31,545 nucleotides of DNA, taken from a virus. Under the pieces are notes generated by a model that saw nothing but the letters and a program-made list of their open reading frames with translations, searched no databases and was not told the DNA's origin. The position numbers and the translations under genes are program-made. The stretch lies in IMG/VR virus record IMGVR_UViG_3300031952_000093, positions 1 to 31,545 of that record. One strand, given 5' to 3'. Below, one piece after another: positions 411 through 18,367 of the stretch; position 1 is the first letter of the stretch, and each line of letters starts with the position of its first letter.

Positions 411-1202
411 TCACGGTAACTTGGTAACTTCCGTATCAACCGGGGGGGATATAAAGTTATTCAAGATTTTTTGTTGTGGCTTCTCGCGGGCTTTTATGCC
501 AATATCCCTCCTTTTTTTGATAATAGATTCATATTCTGATTTTATCTCGAATCCATTATATTTTATACCAAGTTGTTCCGCGGCCTGAATTGTGGTTCCG
601 GTTCCTAGGAATGGATCTAAAACTGATTCGGGTTTAAGTTTATTGAACAAGTAAAACCAAAAATCCCACGGCTTATATGCTGGATGGGGATATTGGTCAG
701 TATTGGTAAATTGGTTTTTTGGAATCTTGAGAGTAATCACGTCACGGATAAGTTGGATGTTCTTGATCTTGCCATAGAACAAGATTGGCTCCCAATGCGA
801 ATTAAAGCCTTCGGCATTCGGTTTATGCCAAATCCTGATCTGATAATCGGGCTTGCGATAAATTATCCAATTGGCCAATTCCGCACAACCGGGGGTTAAA
901 ACAATTCCCTGGCATATCCGCGTCAATTCAGGAAACCAAGAATCAACCCACTTGAAAAAATCTTGCCCCCAATCATCATTGAAGGTAATCTTGACATCCT
1001 TCATTTCAAAAGGTTGCTTCTTCTTGCGGTTCAAGGTTCCCTTTCCCTTGCCGCACCGTTTAGAAGATAACCCCGTCTTTTTTTGAATATTATATGGGGG
1101 ATCAGTTATTGCCAATTCAAATTGCCCATCCTGAAATAGTGGTAAATAGTCCCGGCAATCCCCGATGATATATGTATTAAACGGGGGGATGGTTTTTTCC
1201 AT
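411..1202 (-). CDS. DNA methyltransferase, beta-class (DPPY)
   Basis: S-adenosylmethionine-dependent DNA methyltransferase of 263 aa, N4-cytosine or N6-adenine type. The catalytic motif TDPPYN (DPPY at residues 34-37) comes before the SAM-binding motif LDPFLGTGTT (195-204). This order is the permuted arrangement of beta-class enzymes. The stretch between holds the variable target-recognition region. The ATG at 1202 is needed to keep the conserved IIGDCRDYL segment, so the 26-base overlap with the upstream zinc-ribbon gene is real. No restriction endonuclease lies beside it, so it probably protects viral DNA from host restriction or marks it. Target sequence unknown. Confidence 0.92.
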   Translation of the reverse strand: MEKTIPPFNTYIIGDCRDYLPLFQDGQFELAITDPPYNIQKKTGLSSKRCGKGKGTLNRKKKQPFEMKDVKITFNDDWGQDFFKWVDSWFPELTRICQGIVLTPGCAELANWIIYRKPDYQIRIWHKPNAEGFNSHWEPILFYGKIKNIQLIRDVITLKIPKNQFTNTDQYPHPAYKPWDFWFYLFNKLKPESVLDPFLGTGTTIQAAEQLGIKYNGFEIKSEYESIIKKRRDIGIKAREKPQQKILNNFISPPVDTEVTKLP

Positions 1203-1638
1203 ATTCTTTCATCCAACGGGAAACTTCCCCGATCAATGTGAAGCCCGCGCAAGAACCCGCGATAAATACATTCCCACAAGTCTTGCATGTTGCCTTGTTC
1301 TCATCAAAATTGACTTCTATCTTAGCCTTTTTACATTTTGGGCAATATTTAGGCCGTTTATTGCGGCCCTTATATTGTGATCGAACCGAATGAATCAACC
1401 ATTCAATTGCATAAGTTGGAACGGGAGGATCGGGCTTGTAGTCCTTTAATTCTTTCATTAAATTCTTTCCAAAACCATCCCCTAATCCTGGAATCTTTAA
1501 CTTTTCGACATCCTTTTCCTTGGAAACAAGGTAACCTGATTCATGCACCTTATCAAGCTGAACTAGCTGATTGGTATCCAAAGTTTTTTCTGTTTTTTCT
1601 TCGGGCTTATCGGCCACGGGCTTGTTAAATTTGACCAT
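1177..1638 (-). CDS. Zinc-ribbon protein
   Basis: Protein of 153 aa with a lysine- and glutamate-rich N-terminal half and a C-terminal zinc ribbon: CPKCKKAKIEV followed about 20 residues later by CKTCGNVF. The second half resembles the treble-clef or ribbon fold used in nucleic-acid or protein binding. Its ATG shares one base with the stop of the upstream 64-aa gene (TAATG), so the two are translationally coupled, and its 3' end overlaps the methyltransferase start by 26 bases. Function is unknown; a DNA- or RNA-binding accessory role is a guess from the ribbon. Confidence 0.8.
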   Translation of the reverse strand: MVKFNKPVADKPEEKTEKTLDTNQLVQLDKVHESGYLVSKEKDVEKLKIPGLGDGFGKNLMKELKDYKPDPPVPTYAIEWLIHSVRSQYKGRNKRPKYCPKCKKAKIEVNFDENKATCKTCGNVFIAGSCAGFTLIGEVSRWMKEYGKNHPPV

Positions 1639-2905: not shown

Positions 2906-3232
2906 ATGTCAGTAACCCCACCTCGTTTAACGGCATCCTTGTCCCGCAAGATTGCAACGGCACAATATGAATCGGTGGATTTTTTTACGAGCTTTTCTCT
3001 CGATCTTCTATCAAATGAGCATCCCGTTCAAAGGTTGGCTTGGATGACGGCCATTCTTGAAAGCTTCATGCACGTTAAGGAGCGCGAGATTCTAGACGCG
3101 GTTAATAAGAAAAATCTACCAACCTTGTTTGAACTAATACAAAAGGTTCGGGAAAGTAGAATACAGCAATCCTCTCAAGTCAATAAGATTGACTTCAAGA
3201 AACTTCCAGGTAGTGATCCCAATTTAAGGTGA
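2906..3232 (+). CDS. Hypothetical protein (108 aa)
   Basis: Begins one base after the preceding stop and ends just before the SSB-like gene. The 108-aa product looks helical with an aromatic-rich centre (SVDFFTSFSLDLL and RLAWMTAILESFMHV) and a basic C-terminus (NKIDFKKLPGSDPNLR). No family recognised. GAGG about ten bases upstream is a weak ribosome site, so coupling to the upstream gene is likely. Its stop codon TGA (3230-3232) lies within the GGTGATC ribosome site of the next gene, a sign of coupled translation. Confidence 0.75.
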   Translation: MSVTPPRLTASLSRKIATAQYESVDFFTSFSLDLLSNEHPVQRLAWMTAILESFMHVKEREILDAVNKKNLPTLFELIQKVRESRIQQSSQVNKIDFKKLPGSDPNLR

Positions 3233-3237
3233 TCAGC

Positions 3238-4206
3238 ATGAGTCAAAAAACACAATTGCCCCCGGCAAACAATATCTATGAATGCCTTACGAAGGCGCCC
3301 AATTCCCCCGTGCCTAGCCTGAAAGCCATAGTTGTGAAGGTTCAGGAACCAAAGGCTTTCACGGGCAAGGATGGGAAGCCAGGAACCCGCGTTGCATTGA
3401 GAATTCGGGACCCGACGGGAGAAATTTCTTTTACCATGTTTAATCCCCCAAAGGTTCCCGAAGTCAATGATATTCTGGATATAACTTCGGGTTATATCAA
3501 GCCCCCGTATCAACCTGGAGGGGCTAATGAGCTAGGCCTTTCCCAATGGAATAGTTCGGTTGTTACTATGGGCAAGGGTCAAGCTCCCCAGGCCGTCCAA
3601 GCTCCCCAACCTCAAGGCCAGGATCCCGCGGCACAATTCTTCGGATTGCAACAAAAACCAAATCCGCAACCGGCCGCGGCCCCGGTTACCCAATGGGTTC
3701 AACCCGTGCATCCCGTTACACAACAAAGCCCCGCAATGCCGAATTGGGCAACCGGATCACAAGGCTTCTTGCCCCCGGTTCAAGCCCCGGTTCAGGCACC
3801 AACCCCGCAACCGGCCCCGGTTCAACAAGCACCAACGGCACCTATTCCAAGTGAGGAATATCCCGATGGGGATTCCTTGTACAAACCGGATGTCGCTTCG
3901 GCCATTCTTGCACTTTCGGAAAATCTTGTAATGTTAAGTTGCAAGATCGAAGAAGGAATCAAAGAAACCAATCAAAATCTCTCGGCAATCTATCAAGAAC
4001 TGATGACGGGAGGGGTTGATTTGGATTCAAAATTCGATGAGATATATAAAAGATTGGTCAAAAACGGGATAAAACCGGAAATTATCTTCGCGGCCCTGGC
4101 GAAGGCTTGCGCGGAAACCAACGGCCTAGTGGATCATAAAACGGCAATAGGGGTTTTCGCAACCGAAAAAGGAATAGACATAAATGATATAATCGGAGAA
4201 AAGTAA
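3238..4206 (+). CDS. SSB-like OB-fold protein with Pro/Gln linker
   Basis: A 322-aa protein in three parts. Residues 12-112 look like a single OB fold of the RPA/SOSS-B type: strand-rich, with KAIVVKVQEPKAF, GTRVALRIRDPTGEISFTMF and VNDILDITSGYIKPP. Residues about 113-215 are a disordered Pro/Gln/Ala-rich linker with repeats such as QAPVQAP. Residues 216-322 are helical. Such proteins bind single-stranded DNA during replication and repair. The start at 3238 has GGTGATC three bases upstream; a GTG at 3229 is the ribosome site itself. In bacterial SSBs the tail recruits partners; here the structured C-terminal part may do so (inference). Confidence 0.8.
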   Translation: MSQKTQLPPANNIYECLTKAPNSPVPSLKAIVVKVQEPKAFTGKDGKPGTRVALRIRDPTGEISFTMFNPPKVPEVNDILDITSGYIKPPYQPGGANELGLSQWNSSVVTMGKGQAPQAVQAPQPQGQDPAAQFFGLQQKPNPQPAAAPVTQWVQPVHPVTQQSPAMPNWATGSQGFLPPVQAPVQAPTPQPAPVQQAPTAPIPSEEYPDGDSLYKPDVASAILALSENLVMLSCKIEEGIKETNQNLSAIYQELMTGGVDLDSKFDEIYKRLVKNGIKPEIIFAALAKACAETNGLVDHKTAIGVFATEKGIDINDIIGEK

Positions 4207-5310: not shown

Positions 5311-5571
5311 ATGAAAATAATAACCGTTAACTTATCAGAACCGCAAGTTAAAGCCTTGCAAGTTCTCCAGGACCTCGGCATGTATCCATCCCGTTCGGAG
5401 GCCATTCGGGTTGCGATTCGTGATTTTCTAATAGAGGAATTAGAATTCGGGAAACCAATTGAAGAAGTTGGCAAAAACAAAAAGAATCCTGAAATAAAAT
5501 CAGAACTTGGAAAAATCTTGAAAAAATTGAATGAAGAACCCGAGGTGGAGATATGCAAGTTGCGACCTTGA
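5311..5571 (+). CDS. Ribbon-helix-helix regulator, first of a tandem pair
   Basis: An 86-aa CopG-family protein. The strand KIITVNLSEPQ is followed by helix one (VKALQVLQDLG) and helix two, with the conserved SRSEAIRVAIRDFLIEEL. The C-terminal third is Lys/Glu-rich and probably flexible or used for partner contacts. It starts 11 bases after GGAG, and its end overlaps the next gene by 19 bases. It is clearly paralogous to that neighbour: both share the phrase G-M-(Y/F)-x-(S/N)-RSEAIR and the FL...EL helix end. A heterodimer is possible. Confidence 0.88.
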   Translation: MKIITVNLSEPQVKALQVLQDLGMYPSRSEAIRVAIRDFLIEELEFGKPIEEVGKNKKNPEIKSELGKILKKLNEEPEVEICKLRP

Positions 5572-5798
5572 ATATTCCATCTATTTATTTGGATACAATT
5601 GCCAAATTAGTTTCAATTGGCATGTTCCAAAACCGTTCGGAGGCTATTCGGCACATGGTACGGGGTTTTCTGAAAAGAGAACTGAACATGGTCGAAGCAT
5701 TGATTGATCTCGAGGGTATTGAAGTTAAACCCGCGGAAATAAGGAAAAAATCGGGACCAATCGACATGAGAACAATAAAGGGGGGTTGGAACAAGTGA
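5553..5798 (+). CDS. Ribbon-helix-helix regulator, second of a tandem pair
   Basis: An 81-aa CopG-family protein: strand QVATLNIPSIY, helix one LDTIAKLVSIG, then NRSEAIRHMVRGFLKREL. GAGGTG five bases upstream of the ATG (5553) supports the start even though it lies inside the previous gene. The tail is basic (KPAEIRKKSGPIDMRTIKGG). Its stop forms a GTGA overlap with the GTG start of the nuclease downstream. Tandem RHH genes probably arose by duplication and may bind operators together, for example at the promoters of groups A, B or E. Confidence 0.87.
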   Translation: MQVATLNIPSIYLDTIAKLVSIGMFQNRSEAIRHMVRGFLKRELNMVEALIDLEGIEVKPAEIRKKSGPIDMRTIKGGWNK

Positions 5799-6544
5799 TA
5801 AGAGAAGAAGATGGAAACTTCATTGATTTTCGGGAATCCCAGGACATGCTTTCTATCGCGTCACAACGAAACTTCAATGTTAAACGCTTAACATTTGAAG
5901 ATCATGCATCAGATCCATTCAAGGTTGCCCGATGGGTTCAGATAACCCGCGGGGATCGAGAATGTGGAGATATTGCGAATTACAAGGCCGTCGGGGAGAT
6001 TAAAACCATTCAGGATGCAATGGGTTGGGAGCATTTTATATGGCAATGCCATAAGATGCTTTGGACGGGTAAATATGTTGCCGTTTTCATCCGTGATTAT
6101 GTTTATGGCCGTTTTCAAATGATAAAAACCCGCGTCATGACTGATGAAAGCATTTCAGCAACCGAGCATCGAATCCAGGTCAAATGCGCGAAGCTTCGGA
6201 TCCCCGTTTTCTATTGTGCAACAATGGATGATCTTTTCAATCGAATGGAATATTGGCTAGAGAAATGCAATGAGGCCCCGAAGCCTATCAATACCTACAA
6301 TGACCATAAATCGAAATTTGAAACCCCGGTGGTCATGTTATGTGGAATCGCGGGAATTGGAGAGGTTCATGCGCGCATGTTCCTTTCCATTTCTAAAACA
6401 ATAGGCCGTTTAGCCTTGGATTGCGAAGAAATGGACCTCAAGGGTTTTACCGCGCATTATAGCAAGATTAAAGGCCTTAAAAGCGCGTATTGCGAAAAGG
6501 CTTGGAGAGCATTCCACCAACCCGTTTTAGAGGATGAATCATGA
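5795..6544 (+). CDS. XPF/ERCC4-like nuclease with helix-hairpin-helix
   Basis: A 249-aa protein resembling the nuclease half of archaeal XPF or Hef. GDIANYKAVGEIKTIQDAM (residues 58-76) matches the GD...ERKxxxD catalytic pattern, with Asp59, Glu68, Lys70 and Asp74; the usual ERK is EIK here. Residues about 178-240 (MLCGIAGIGEVHARMF, FSIxxxxG-like KIKGLKSAYCEKAW) look like the tandem helix-hairpin-helix that binds branched DNA. I chose GTG at 5795 (GTGA overlap with the upstream stop, AGGGGGG nine bases before) over TTG at 5786. These enzymes cut flaps and forks, fitting the neighbouring Cas4-like nuclease and SSB. Confidence 0.82.
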   Translation: MIREEDGNFIDFRESQDMLSIASQRNFNVKRLTFEDHASDPFKVARWVQITRGDRECGDIANYKAVGEIKTIQDAMGWEHFIWQCHKMLWTGKYVAVFIRDYVYGRFQMIKTRVMTDESISATEHRIQVKCAKLRIPVFYCATMDDLFNRMEYWLEKCNEAPKPINTYNDHKSKFETPVVMLCGIAGIGEVHARMFLSISKTIGRLALDCEEMDLKGFTAHYSKIKGLKSAYCEKAWRAFHQPVLEDES

Positions 6545-7227
6545 ACAATCCAAAGAGGCCGTTGACCAATTACAACCGCAAGCAAGGGGCCGATATTTTT
6601 ACCTTTTCATTGCCCCGCAACACATGCCTGGCTCACAAAACCAAATTGTGCTTTGAACGGTGCTATGGCCGCAAAAGGGTATTCTTAACTCATGACGTTT
6701 TAGGCCGATATATCAAAAATCTTTCAGATAGTAAGGACCCTGATTTTGAATCTTGCGTGATCGATCAGATCATTCGGGAAAAAGTCGATTACATCAGGAT
6801 ACATACTATCGGGGATTTTTATTCGCAAGCCTATTTTAACAAGTGGGTTACAATAGCTAGGATTTGTCCCGCAACTAAATTCCTTGCTTACACGCGGAAT
6901 TGGGAACTGAATGCTTATCTTCTTCCAGATAATTTCAAGCTATATTATTCCGTGGATGTTACTACAACCAAATTCAATCCGACAATCCACCGTCGATCCA
7001 CCATGTTTTTCCCCCCTCCCGAGGTCAAGGTTTATGCTCATCTTGAACCTTTATCCCGGCCTGAATTCGAGGGAAGGATATGCTCTAGTAGATGCTCGCA
7101 TTGCAAGACTTGTTGGAATGGCCGATTCAATATTGCATTCCCGATTGTTACCAATCTTGGCGTTACATATAAATCGGAAACTTTGGATTATTATTCGATT
7201 CCAAAAAGAACCCAGGTGAAAGCATGA
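6541..7227 (+). CDS. GP88-family phage protein
   Basis: A 228-aa protein with the signature of the phage GP88 family. An N-terminal Cys set C-x7-C-x3-CYG (Cys29, 37, 41) is followed by RIHTIGDFYSQAYFNKWVTI (86-105), FLAYTRNW (114-121) and a C-terminal cluster CSSRCSHCKTCWNG. The family is widespread in mycobacteriophages and other tailed phages; its biochemical role is not established, and a metal- or radical-SAM-like fold has been suggested. Start at 6541 has GAGGATGA upstream and an ATGA overlap with the XPF-like gene, implying coupled expression. Confidence 0.85.
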   Translation: MNNPKRPLTNYNRKQGADIFTFSLPRNTCLAHKTKLCFERCYGRKRVFLTHDVLGRYIKNLSDSKDPDFESCVIDQIIREKVDYIRIHTIGDFYSQAYFNKWVTIARICPATKFLAYTRNWELNAYLLPDNFKLYYSVDVTTTKFNPTIHRRSTMFFPPPEVKVYAHLEPLSRPEFEGRICSSRCSHCKTCWNGRFNIAFPIVTNLGVTYKSETLDYYSIPKRTQVKA

Positions 7228-7901
7228 CAACTATGGTTAATCACATTAAGAACATGGGAAAAAATGAATGTGAAATTGTTTTTGCCAAAAATATCGAAGA
7301 TTACAACTATAAACGGTGGACTTGTGCCCACGGCCAGGTTTATTATTTCGATATTGAATGCGAAAAGTGGAAAGTGACGCATTTTATTAAATATGGGAAT
7401 CAATTGGGTTGTGGTTGCAAGGTTCCGTGTTCTCCAAATGAAAACCGTGGGTTAATTACACTTGAACGGCATTTGGATTTAATATCAGATATAGTTGGCG
7501 AATGCCCTTATTGCGCGAATAAAAAATCAACCGTCCTTGGATCCTATCCGCGTTGTGTTGTCATTCAATGCGATAGTTGCGGATCCCCAAGAACAATTAA
7601 ACCTGATGAAATATGGGAAGAAATTCGGGACTTACAAGAAAAACGAGAAGAACGCGAGCGCGAAATTCACCAATTGGTAATGGATAGAAAGTATATTAAA
7701 TCAAACATAAAGCATTATCAAGAAACAATTAGTTTCTACAAAAAAAATGGTAAAAATTTAATTCAAGAAGCAATAAATAAAGAAAAGGCTAAAATATCCC
7801 GTGAAATGAAGGATGCAATCAAAGAAATTAAAGAAAACAAAGATAGATTAAAAAAACTAAATGTAGTTGGTGCCCGTGGAAAACAATCAACCCTTAGATA
7901 A
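7224..7901 (+). CDS. Zinc-binding coiled-coil protein
   Basis: A 225-aa protein. The N-terminal part holds several Cys (CAHG near 34, CGCKVPC at 63-69). A ribbon follows with Cys94-x2-Cys97 (CPYC) and Cys116-x2-Cys119 (CDSC). Residues about 128-215 form a long, highly charged coiled coil (EIRDLQEKREEREREIHQL and KDAIKEIKENKDRLKKL). The start has AGGTGA four bases upstream and an ATGA overlap with the GP88 gene. The combination suggests an oligomeric nucleic-acid- or protein-binding factor; no family name is justified. Confidence 0.8.
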   Translation: MTTMVNHIKNMGKNECEIVFAKNIEDYNYKRWTCAHGQVYYFDIECEKWKVTHFIKYGNQLGCGCKVPCSPNENRGLITLERHLDLISDIVGECPYCANKKSTVLGSYPRCVVIQCDSCGSPRTIKPDEIWEEIRDLQEKREEREREIHQLVMDRKYIKSNIKHYQETISFYKKNGKNLIQEAINKEKAKISREMKDAIKEIKENKDRLKKLNVVGARGKQSTLR

Positions 7902-12072: not shown

Positions 12073-12101
12073 GCCCCTCACGGGGGCTTTATCTTTTTTT
12101 T
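12073..12101 (+). terminator. Intrinsic-type terminator for group D
   Basis: Plus-strand stem GCCCC (12073-12077) and GGGGC (12083-12087) with a five-base loop, followed by tttatctttttttt to 12101. It lies beyond the plus-strand gene end and overlaps the end of the minus-strand gene at 12100. With the opposite terminator it forms a convergent pair. Confidence 0.65.
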
Positions 12102-12480
12102 AGGTTGGAAGCATCTTGACCAGGTAGGACATTAACCATCCCGCGAATAGAAAAATTACAATAATGATCCATTTCTTTGCTTCATTCTTGACCATTTTGT
12201 TGGCTTCTTCTATTGGGATTGCGGATATATATGCCGCGTTAACCCTTGCGGATTGGCTTGGATTATCAGCAATTGCCCGCGTTTTTAGGCTTGCTAATTT
12301 GACCAATTCATCCTTATCCATTATTCCGTCCTTTTGCATTTGAATTATGACATCCTCGAATTCCTGAACGGATAGTTGATTATCGGCCAGGACCTTCATT
12401 ATGAAGGCATCTAATTCGGAGGTTGTGCTTGGGGTTCCTTGGCTTGGGGTTGTGCTTGGGGTTGTGCTTGGGGTTGACAT
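12100..12480 (-). CDS. Tail-anchored small membrane protein, Ser/Thr/Pro N-terminus
   Basis: A 126-aa protein. Residues 1-20 are a low-complexity Ser/Thr/Pro segment (MSTPSTTPSTTPSQGTPSTT) coded by a 12-bp tandem repeat. A helical domain follows (LDAFIMKVLADNQLSVQEFEDVII...), and a single membrane segment lies near the C-terminus (KWIIIVIFLFAGWLMSYLV). The repeat lies inside the end of the upstream gene in another frame (70-base overlap). Last gene of the virion operon; two consecutive membrane proteins here could be a lysis or envelope-contact pair. Function unproven. Confidence 0.75.
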   Translation of the reverse strand: MSTPSTTPSTTPSQGTPSTTSELDAFIMKVLADNQLSVQEFEDVIIQMQKDGIMDKDELVKLASLKTRAIADNPSQSARVNAAYISAIPIEEANKMVKNEAKKWIIIVIFLFAGWLMSYLVKMLPT

Positions 12481-13007
12481 GGGGGATCTACCTTTTTGTA
12501 CAATATTTCTGTTTTCTTTTTTTCAATTTTACTTTTCTCGAGGGCCTTTAGATTCGCGTCATAAGTTATACACGCGTCATCTAGCATTCTTTTTAGCATT
12601 GTAACTTCCATGACTTTAAGCTCTAATTGTTCATTTACCTGGCTGATTTGATTGGTTACTTTATCGAGAAGTTTTCTCTTTTGCAACGCGCGGGATTGCC
12701 CGGCCTCGATTTTCAGGCCAACCACAACAAGCGCGGGAACGGATCCGAGCAATAGGAGCAAGAATGTATTATAATCCCAATTCCATCCCGTTGGTTGATT
12801 TGACCAAGGGGGAATCCAGGATCGAGGATCCCCCGTTCCCGTGTATCTAACGGTATTACAAAAATATCCTATTGCAAGGATCAGGACAAAAATCAAAATT
12901 GTTTTCCAAAGTAACTTAGAATTGATTTTTGGGGGCTTGTAATTAGGATTGGTAGCGCGTTCCGTCATTTCTTCTTCTAATTCATCCCAATCGACAATGT
13001 TTTCCAT
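12411..13007 (-). CDS. Two-span membrane protein with coiled coil and Pro/Gln tail
   Basis: From the ATG at 13007, 198 aa. Acidic N-terminus, membrane segments at about 33-52 and 81-100, a coiled coil at about 103-172 (KRKLLDKVTNQISQVNEQLE), and a Pro/Gln/Ala tail (PCQPQAQPQAQPQAKEPQAQ) coded by the same repeat that starts the next gene. A TTG at 13028 would extend it by seven residues. Neither start has a strong ribosome site. It follows the tail-hub gene. Topology resembles a membrane-bound spacer protein; a lysis role is possible but unsupported. Confidence 0.75.
   Translation of the reverse strand: MENIVDWDELEEEMTERATNPNYKPPKINSKLLWKTILIFVLILAIGYFCNTVRYTGTGDPRSWIPPWSNQPTGWNWDYNTFLLLLLGSVPALVVVGLKIEAGQSRALQKRKLLDKVTNQISQVNEQLELKVMEVTMLKRMLDDACITYDANLKALEKSKIEKKKTEILYKKVDPPCQPQAQPQAQPQAKEPQAQPPN
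12428..12480. repeat. 12-bp tandem repeat read in two frames
   Basis: The minus strand carries copies of a 12-bp unit close to ACCCCAAGCACA, two perfect and others broken by one variant segment (CCAAGGA). In one frame it codes Pro-Gln-Ala-Gln repeats (end of 12411-13007), in the other Ser-Thr-Thr-Pro repeats (start of 12100-12480). Confidence 0.85.
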
Positions 13008-13043
13008 GAGAAAAGAATGATCTTGCAAGTTAATATTTATTTC

Positions 13044-16706: not shown

Positions 16707-17786
16707 TTAATCCACCAGAAATGCTTGTTTTTGTATTTGACGTGCTAATCTATTTATTTGTTCATCATTCAACAAGATGGGATTCGTTATATTTGTGTTA
16801 TAGGTTCTTGATTCTTTTGAACCACTTTCCGCGCCTCCCGATGCAACCGCGCGTGTGAATGCCGTTAACATTTCAGGATTCATGACCAATTCTCCCGCGT
16901 GAACAATTGCGGGGCCGGTTGACATTACCGTTCCACCCTCGGCCAACCGTGCTAACCTAGGAATATCGGGGAACCAATTCAGAAAATCCATCATGTTCAG
17001 AAAATCAATGAACGCGTTGATTATGTCGATAAAGAAATTTATAAATGCTTTGAACCCGTCAACAATGGCATTCCAAATAGCCCCGGCATTATCTATCAAC
17101 CAGGTTATCCCTTGGGCTATCCAGGTAAAAAATTGGGTAATATATGGAATGATGGGCATGATAACATTTTGAATTATCCAAAGCAAGACATCATTGATAA
17201 CCATGACCACTTTAATGATTGCATCGAGCATTCCTGAATCAACTAGTCCCTGGATCAAGGCCATGACAACCTCGACAACCGCGGAAGTAATTGCGACTAG
17301 CTGTTCAAAAACCCCTGAATCAACTAATTTTTGAATTACGAATCCGATCAATTCAAAAATCACGGCAACAATTGGCATTAGGGCCTCGATGATAGGCATT
17401 ATTGCCATCATGAGATTTATAATAATTGGAACCAACTTCTCGATAACCGGGCCTATCATTGTCCCGATCATTGTTGCTAATTGGGTAATTGCCCCTATAA
17501 CCGTCGGGGAGAAAATTTGCTTGATAACATTTTGAAGAACGGGCATTAATGTTTGTTTCAAAATTCCGCTGAAAATAGAAAACAATTGTGCAAAAGGTTT
17601 TAGAAGGCTAACAATGGGTTCAAGAATCTTGTTCAGGATGTCCCCCATGCCCATTGCTTCTTTCATTTGATTGCCAATGTTACCTATAACCCCCGTTGCG
17701 GTTTTACCCATGCTTTGAAGCCCTTTTCCAAGGCCTCCCATGAGGCCTTTAGCTCCCTTGGCAACCATTCCAAAGATTGCAGCCAT
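16707..17786 (-). CDS. Tape measure protein
   Basis: A 359-aa hydrophobic, helical protein rich in Ile, Met and Gly, with long membrane-like helices (about 95-265) and the C-terminal turn typical of tape measures, LAEGGTVMSTGPAIVHAGEL (281-300). It sits directly after the tail chaperones. Tape measures set tail length at about 1.5 angstroms per residue, so a tail near 50-55 nm is expected. The start shares a TAATG with the end of the frameshifted chaperone. Short compared with many siphoviruses, consistent with a short tail. Confidence 0.88.
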   Translation of the reverse strand: MAAIFGMVAKGAKGLMGGLGKGLQSMGKTATGVIGNIGNQMKEAMGMGDILNKILEPIVSLLKPFAQLFSIFSGILKQTLMPVLQNVIKQIFSPTVIGAITQLATMIGTMIGPVIEKLVPIIINLMMAIMPIIEALMPIVAVIFELIGFVIQKLVDSGVFEQLVAITSAVVEVVMALIQGLVDSGMLDAIIKVVMVINDVLLWIIQNVIMPIIPYITQFFTWIAQGITWLIDNAGAIWNAIVDGFKAFINFFIDIINAFIDFLNMMDFLNWFPDIPRLARLAEGGTVMSTGPAIVHAGELVMNPEMLTAFTRAVASGGAESGSKESRTYNTNITNPILLNDEQINRLARQIQKQAFLVD

Positions 17787-18028
17787 TATCTATGCCTTTT
17801 CATTTTTGAACTCATATCTTTTATTCCCTTTTCCTGGGCTTGTTGTTCGGCCTCGATCATTGCCCCCCAAAATATCTTCTTGGGCTTGTCGAGGGCTTTG
17901 TATTCTTCGGAGGTTAAGCCTAATGCCCTCCGAAAGTTAAATTCATCCAACATTAGGGCTAGCTCGGGATTTTCTCTAATCCAGGCTTGTCTTGCCCCTC
18001 GAGTTTTATATCGAACAATCTCGGATGC
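17786..18028 (-). CDS. Tail assembly chaperone T segment, made by -1 frameshift
   Basis: An 80-aa frame without its own suitable start continues the upstream chaperone frame after a -1 shift on the A9 run at 18029-18037. It begins ASEIVRYKTRGARQAWIREN and ends KDMSSKMKRHR at TAA 17788-17786, in a TAATG overlap with the tape measure. A TAG lies in this frame just upstream of the slip site, so it can only be reached by shifting. The fusion from ATG 18336 is about 183 aa. In phages the equivalent G-T fusion binds both tape measure and tail tube protein during assembly. Confidence 0.85.
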   Translation of the reverse strand, partial: ASEIVRYKTRGARQAWIRENPELALMLDEFNFRRALGLTSEEYKALDKPKKIFWGAMIEAEQQAQEKGIKDMSSKMKRHR

Positions 18029-18336
18029 TTTTTTTTTATGCTATTGAACCGGGATTCGATTGCTTCGGCAACTTCGGCAAGAAGATCGAAGCTTAACTCG
18101 ATATCATCTAAATCGGCCTCATCCGCAAGATACTTCTCATCCATCTTTGGATTAATGACCATTTTAAACATGATCAAGTTTCGCAAGTTGAGGGATGCAA
18201 TTCCTCGCCGTTCATCATTATCTATTTTATCCAACTTATCAAATTCTCGAACGGCAATGTCGATAATCTGATACGGGACGGATTCCCGAACCTCAAAAGT
18301 TTTCTTTCCAATTATTATGTTTTTAGTCTTTGCCAT
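17959..18336 (-). CDS. Tail assembly chaperone G
   Basis: A 125-aa protein from ATG 18336 (GATGATT upstream; an in-frame ATG at 18345 is less likely). It starts MAKTKNIIIGKKTFEVRESV, with an acidic helical centre (ADEADLDDIELSFDLLAEVA), between the tail tube and tape-measure genes, exactly where lambda-type gpG lies. Near its end the codons ATA AAA AAA AAG contain a slippery A AAA AAG heptamer that allows a -1 shift into the T segment. Unshifted ribosomes add 22 residues (HPRLFDIKLEGQDKPGLEKI...) and stop at 17959. Confidence 0.85.
   Translation of the reverse strand: MAKTKNIIIGKKTFEVRESVPYQIIDIAVREFDKLDKIDNDERRGIASLNLRNLIMFKMVINPKMDEKYLADEADLDDIELSFDLLAEVAEAIESRFNSIKKKHPRLFDIKLEGQDKPGLEKIPS
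18028..18038 (-). promoter_or_regulatory. Slippery site for -1 programmed frameshift
   Basis: On the minus strand nine A followed by G (18037 to 18028). In the chaperone frame this reads ATA AAA AAA AAG, containing A AAA AAG, the same heptamer as in E. coli dnaX. Slipping back one base continues as GCA TCC GAG and opens the T segment. Confidence 0.8.
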
Positions 18337-18367
18337 TTGAATCATCGCGTTAAAAAAGGGTTAAATA

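Follow-up and report, generated by a model that had tools for sequence, protein, structure and literature searches.

Tail genes and overlapping frames at the locus

The window, by which we mean the whole stretch of 31,545 nucleotides that was analyzed (IMG/VR record IMGVR_UViG_3300031952_000093, positions 1 to 31,545), carries on its minus strand two overlapping open frames, G and T, that lie between a putative tail tube gene and a tape measure gene (Table 1). The gene directly downstream had been called the tape measure in the preliminary description of this locus, and its matches to PHROG tape-measure profiles bear this out. The sequence ATA AAA AAA AAG, with nine consecutive A residues (the A9 run) in the frame of the putative chaperone, is likewise present exactly as it had been described. 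The run contains two overlapping in-frame slippery heptamers, A AAA AAA (at 18037) and A AAA AAG (at 18034). G is 128 amino acids long if translated from ATG 18345 and 125 amino acids long if translated from ATG 18336, and it ends 22 codons past the slip site in the 0 frame.

The coordinates earlier given for the -1 frame also hold. This frame is closed by a TAG (18043 to 18041) directly before the run; from there, 84 open codons lead to a TAA (17788 to 17786) that forms a TAATG junction, in which the last A of the T stop also begins the tape-measure ATG (17786). A -1 shift would join 103 codons, counted from ATG 18336, to the 80 codons of T that follow the slip, and the predicted length of 183 amino acids for this fusion (GT) is correct from that start. 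The preliminary description had also noted that T has no good start of its own. Indeed, no ATG, GTG, or TTG occurs within the first 25 codons after the slip, and the earliest candidate, ATG 17953, lies 5 nucleotides past the G stop and lacks a Shine-Dalgarno motif.

Table 1. Features of the tail chaperone region, with coordinates in the window
Feature	Coordinates	Strand	Basis
G, putative tail assembly chaperone, made by standard decoding	17959..18345	-	Open frame; position between tube and tape measure
Slip site ATA AAA AAA AAG	18028..18039	-	A9 run at 18037-18029
T, segment of the -1 frame with 80 codons past the slip	17786..18040	-	Open frame; coding-like codon usage
GT, fusion of 183 aa predicted from the -1 shift	17786..18336	-	Sequence and inference
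Tape measure protein, 359 aa	16707..17786	-	PHROG tape-measure profiles, best E=5.3e-13; overlaps T stop
Putative tail tube protein, 428 aa	18368..19654	-	Weak Phage_tube_2 match, E=0.0092, below Pfam cut-off; position
Candidate downstream RNA structure	17953..18027	-	Folding compared with shuffles

Coding signal in the T segment

Of 12,982 off-frame control windows of 80 codons, only 114 were stop-free, and none of these reached the score of T, which makes T almost certainly coding. No stop interrupts the 25 codons that lead from the slip to ATG 17953, and their score of +4.3 bits ranks at the 55th percentile of windows from real genes. This shorter stretch is matched by 36 of 17,160 off-frame windows (0.2%, or 1.2% of those that are stop-free), values that, like those for the whole segment, are frequencies and not independent probabilities, as the control windows overlap one another. 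The signal ahead of ATG 17953 argues that the T protein starts upstream of this codon, at or near the slip site, and it speaks for a fusion rather than for a separate T gene.

In principle, T could be a separate protein of 55 amino acids that is translated from ATG 17953 by reinitiation after G terminates 5 nucleotides upstream. The short distance to the G stop would suit such a mechanism, as would the many starts of this virus that have no Shine-Dalgarno motif, but the stop-free and gene-like 25 codons in front of the ATG (the joint property found in 0.2% of off-frame windows) are then left unexplained. The structural model also speaks against it. Predicted with AlphaFold without an alignment, T is all-helical (mean pLDDT, 70), and one helix, of moderate confidence, precedes Met 17953. 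The T domains described so far are produced as fusions, which we count as a further argument against a separate T, and overall we consider this explanation highly improbable. A search of BFVD and the PDB with the T model matched no known fold. The corresponding model of G, a beta-hairpin followed by helices, is of low confidence (pLDDT, 46) and too poor for a fold search.

After the slip, the score of the 0 frame in the overlap is -0.3 bits, compared to +4.3 bits for the -1 frame. A 0 frame that does not look coding past the site is also what would be predicted, over the same 22 codons, if the A9 run were truly ten A residues in the virus and one base had been lost in sequencing or assembly, in which case G and T would form one uninterrupted gene of 183 amino acids. 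A single added A fuses the frames exactly, and homopolymers are where such errors fall. Set against this, about 20 other homopolymers of 7 to 8 bases lie inside intact genes, so the contig gives no sign of homopolymer damage, and the break sits at the very gene and position where tailed viruses recode. A lost base is, in our judgment, very unlikely.

The slip site and the proposed mechanism

The idea that the A9 run is remarkable by itself was rejected, as runs of this kind are within chance in synonymous shuffles: when synonymous codons were shuffled among the genes of the window, a mean of 2.66 A9 runs per genome was obtained, and the probability of one in G was 0.21. The decamer AAAAAAAAAG was found twice, compared to an expectation of 0.86 from dinucleotide shuffles. 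Unlike the run alone, the combination of features at the G site exceeds chance. There are 76 in-frame X XXY YYZ sites in the genes of the window, few of them with a -1 frame that runs well beyond the stop, and the G site is the only one from which a long -1 frame opens that is more than a neighboring gene with a recognizable start.

Other slippery sites that lead into a neighboring frame, at 12522 and 5777/5780, were judged to be ordinary overlaps, as the downstream gene has a start codon of its own that follows a purine-rich motif. In the region from 12100 to 13028 (minus strand), two frames overlap, the heptamer A AAA AAG stands at 12522, and the -1 frame is open for 138 codons; since the second of the two frames has its own ATG behind AAGGT, the overlap is probably an ordinary one. 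The region also carries a PQAQ repeat. From 5553 to 6544 (plus strand), a ribbon-helix-helix gene and the one that follows it overlap at AAAGGGGGGTTGG, where the G run is more likely a ribosome site than a slippery one.

We consider it likely that the locus encodes a lambda-type G/GT pair of tail assembly chaperones with a -1 frameshift, as had been proposed from the first reading of the sequence. The position, the slip site, the direction of the shift, the open T frame, the coding signal before ATG 17953, the lack of a Shine-Dalgarno motif at that codon, and a parallel layout in annotated archaeal viruses are all consistent with this prediction. We infer the slippage itself, its ribosomal nature and its efficiency, and the chaperone roles of G and T; the simplest explanation is that ribosomes slip into the -1 frame at A AAA AAG. 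Most ribosomes would complete G and terminate at its stop, and a minority, positioned at A AAA AAG (or A AAA AAA) of the A9 run, would slip back one base and read 80 more codons in the -1 frame, yielding GT. By analogy with lambda, the tape measure may be coated by many copies of G and few of GT, and T may recruit tail-tube subunits.

Upstream of the slip site, no Shine-Dalgarno-like stimulator was found. The candidate structure downstream folds at -18 kcal/mol (z=-1.56, or z=-2.16 with flanks), marginally better than shuffled sequences. Some frameshift sites of tailed phages have been described without stimulators (PMC5009743), and in E. coli, 40% frameshifting was obtained with nine A residues in a cassette from a recoded magnesium chelatase (PMC3711429).

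The same run could act at the level of transcription, with RNA polymerase adding one A so that part of the mRNA carries ten A residues and reads into T. Runs of more than 7 A residues serve transcriptional realignment in bacteria (cited in PMC3711429). Slippage by the polymerase at this site would give an identical protein without the need of an RNA stimulator, and none is evident at the locus. We know of no case of an archaeal RNA polymerase slipping on such a run of A residues, and we count this against a transcriptional origin. Also against it, both A AAA AAG and A AAA AAC are standard sequences for slippage by ribosomes, and translational frameshifting is how the haloarchaeal parallels are described (PMC5009743, PMC8211752). 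We regard transcriptional slippage as unlikely, and we give very little credence to the more specific proposal that a tailed virus of a nonhalophilic archaeon sets its G:GT ratio by slippage of the archaeal RNA polymerase on the A9 run.

Parallels, relatives, and probable host

The closest parallels to the predicted ribosomal frameshift come from the haloarchaeal viruses HCTV-2 (KC292028) and HVTV-1 (KC117377), in which the genes follow the same order: tail tube, G, a joined GT coding sequence, a short tape measure, and a protein of about 150 amino acids. The tape measure is 435 amino acids long in HCTV-2 and 480 in HVTV-1, compared to 359 in the window, and the protein that follows it in the window has 161 amino acids. 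The shift has the same -1 direction in these viruses, and the only slippery heptamer of HCTV-2 is A AAA AAC; HCTV-2 stops directly after the slip site, whereas G in the window continues for 22 codons past the nine A residues. No sequence similarity was detected between the tail proteins of the window and those of these two haloviruses, so the parallel lies in layout and mechanism. The -1 frameshifts of these haloarchaeal viruses have been reviewed (PMC5009743, PMC8211752). Recoding of tail chaperones by a -1 shift is already reported for haloarchaeal tailed viruses, and its novelty was overestimated in the preliminary description.

In HHTV-2 (NC_021340; L069:2860-2960), the chaperones are annotated as two separate genes. 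The -1 frame there runs upstream of the annotated second start with residues like those of the HCTV-2 T (LRAAVRRSK compared to LRKAVRSGD), which suggests an unannotated frameshift at GAG GAA AAC TGA. As this frame extends upstream of the annotated start, annotation alone can hide such frameshifts.

With the G/GT system of phage lambda, the locus shares the position before the tape measure, the -1 direction, and the order of G and T. The lambda slip site is G GGA AAG, as opposed to A AAA AAG or A AAA AAA in the window, and there is no sequence match with lambda. The heptamer A AAA AAG is shared with E. coli dnaX and with A-run recoding sites such as that of archaeal and bacterial magnesium chelatase, but those genes are unrelated, and no Shine-Dalgarno stimulator is seen upstream at the locus.

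A set of distant viral contigs (L046, L047, L053, L054, L056, L058, L059, and L063, e.g., L058:1641-2254, and L062:15366-15934) also shows what appears to be a G/GT -1 frameshift ahead of a large downstream gene. The slip sequence in these contigs is an invariant T TTT TTT (T TTT TTA in L062) with GGAGG just upstream (except in L062), and T has at least 34 codons after the slip without a start codon. The terminase kin of these contigs are bacterial phages. When a G family from distant contigs was compared by profile with G of the window, no relation emerged.

A profile search against tail-chaperone families had been suggested as a check; neither G nor T matches any family in Pfam or PHROGs. 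Such proteins diverge fast. No sequence relatives of G or T were found in profile searches and viral-contig scans, nor did scans of viral contigs with G, the tape measure, the tube, or the capsid return relatives. With the terminase, four scan designs retrieved kin at 22 to 32% identity only. The genome scan gave no match with the terminase alone and four haloarchaea with a Walker-B-guided terminase alignment. Among 393 genomes of the haloarchaeal phylum, there were five weak terminase matches and no capsid match.

The terminase, portal, and head protease are recognizable in the window, which identifies a tailed virus. Across phage, plasmid, and genome collections, the best terminase matches are haloarchaeal, at 24 to 33% identity (PhiCh1, phiH, Natrialba, Halorussus, Haloarcula, and haloarchaeal plasmids). 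T7-like phages match the nuclease part of the terminase, and bacterial-type contigs match the terminase as well. A zinc ribbon of the TFIIB type (E=1.3e-5, which does not reach its curated cut-off) and weak matches to RPA, an archaeal SMC-related protein, and DUF2240 point in an archaeal direction. The earlier label of an archaeal-type virus is supported only indirectly, through these weak domain matches and the terminase. The G+C content of the window is 42%, and so low a value speaks against a haloarchaeal host. On sequence grounds, we consider an archaeal host likely.

If the predicted frameshift is real, -1 recoding of tail chaperones would extend to an orphan virus of 42% G+C without a close sequenced relative; within the reviews PMC5009743 and PMC8211752, such recoding in archaeal viruses is confined to those of haloarchaea. 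It would also restore the 80-codon T segment, which start-based gene calling truncates. Only one case of cellular -1 frameshifting is documented in archaea (PMC8211752), and the locus would be an added candidate for recoding tests in these organisms.

Genes of replication or transcription with an archaeal look lie at 1177 to 1638 (minus strand), 3229 to 4206 (plus strand), and 7224 to 7901 (plus strand); they comprise the TFIIB zinc ribbon, an RPA-like OB fold, and the archaeal SMC-related coiled coil, all weak matches. A Gp88-family protein (Pfam GP88, E=3.5e-22) is encoded at 6541 to 7227 (plus strand); its phage matches are mostly mycobacteriophages, and here it occurs in a probably archaeal virus.
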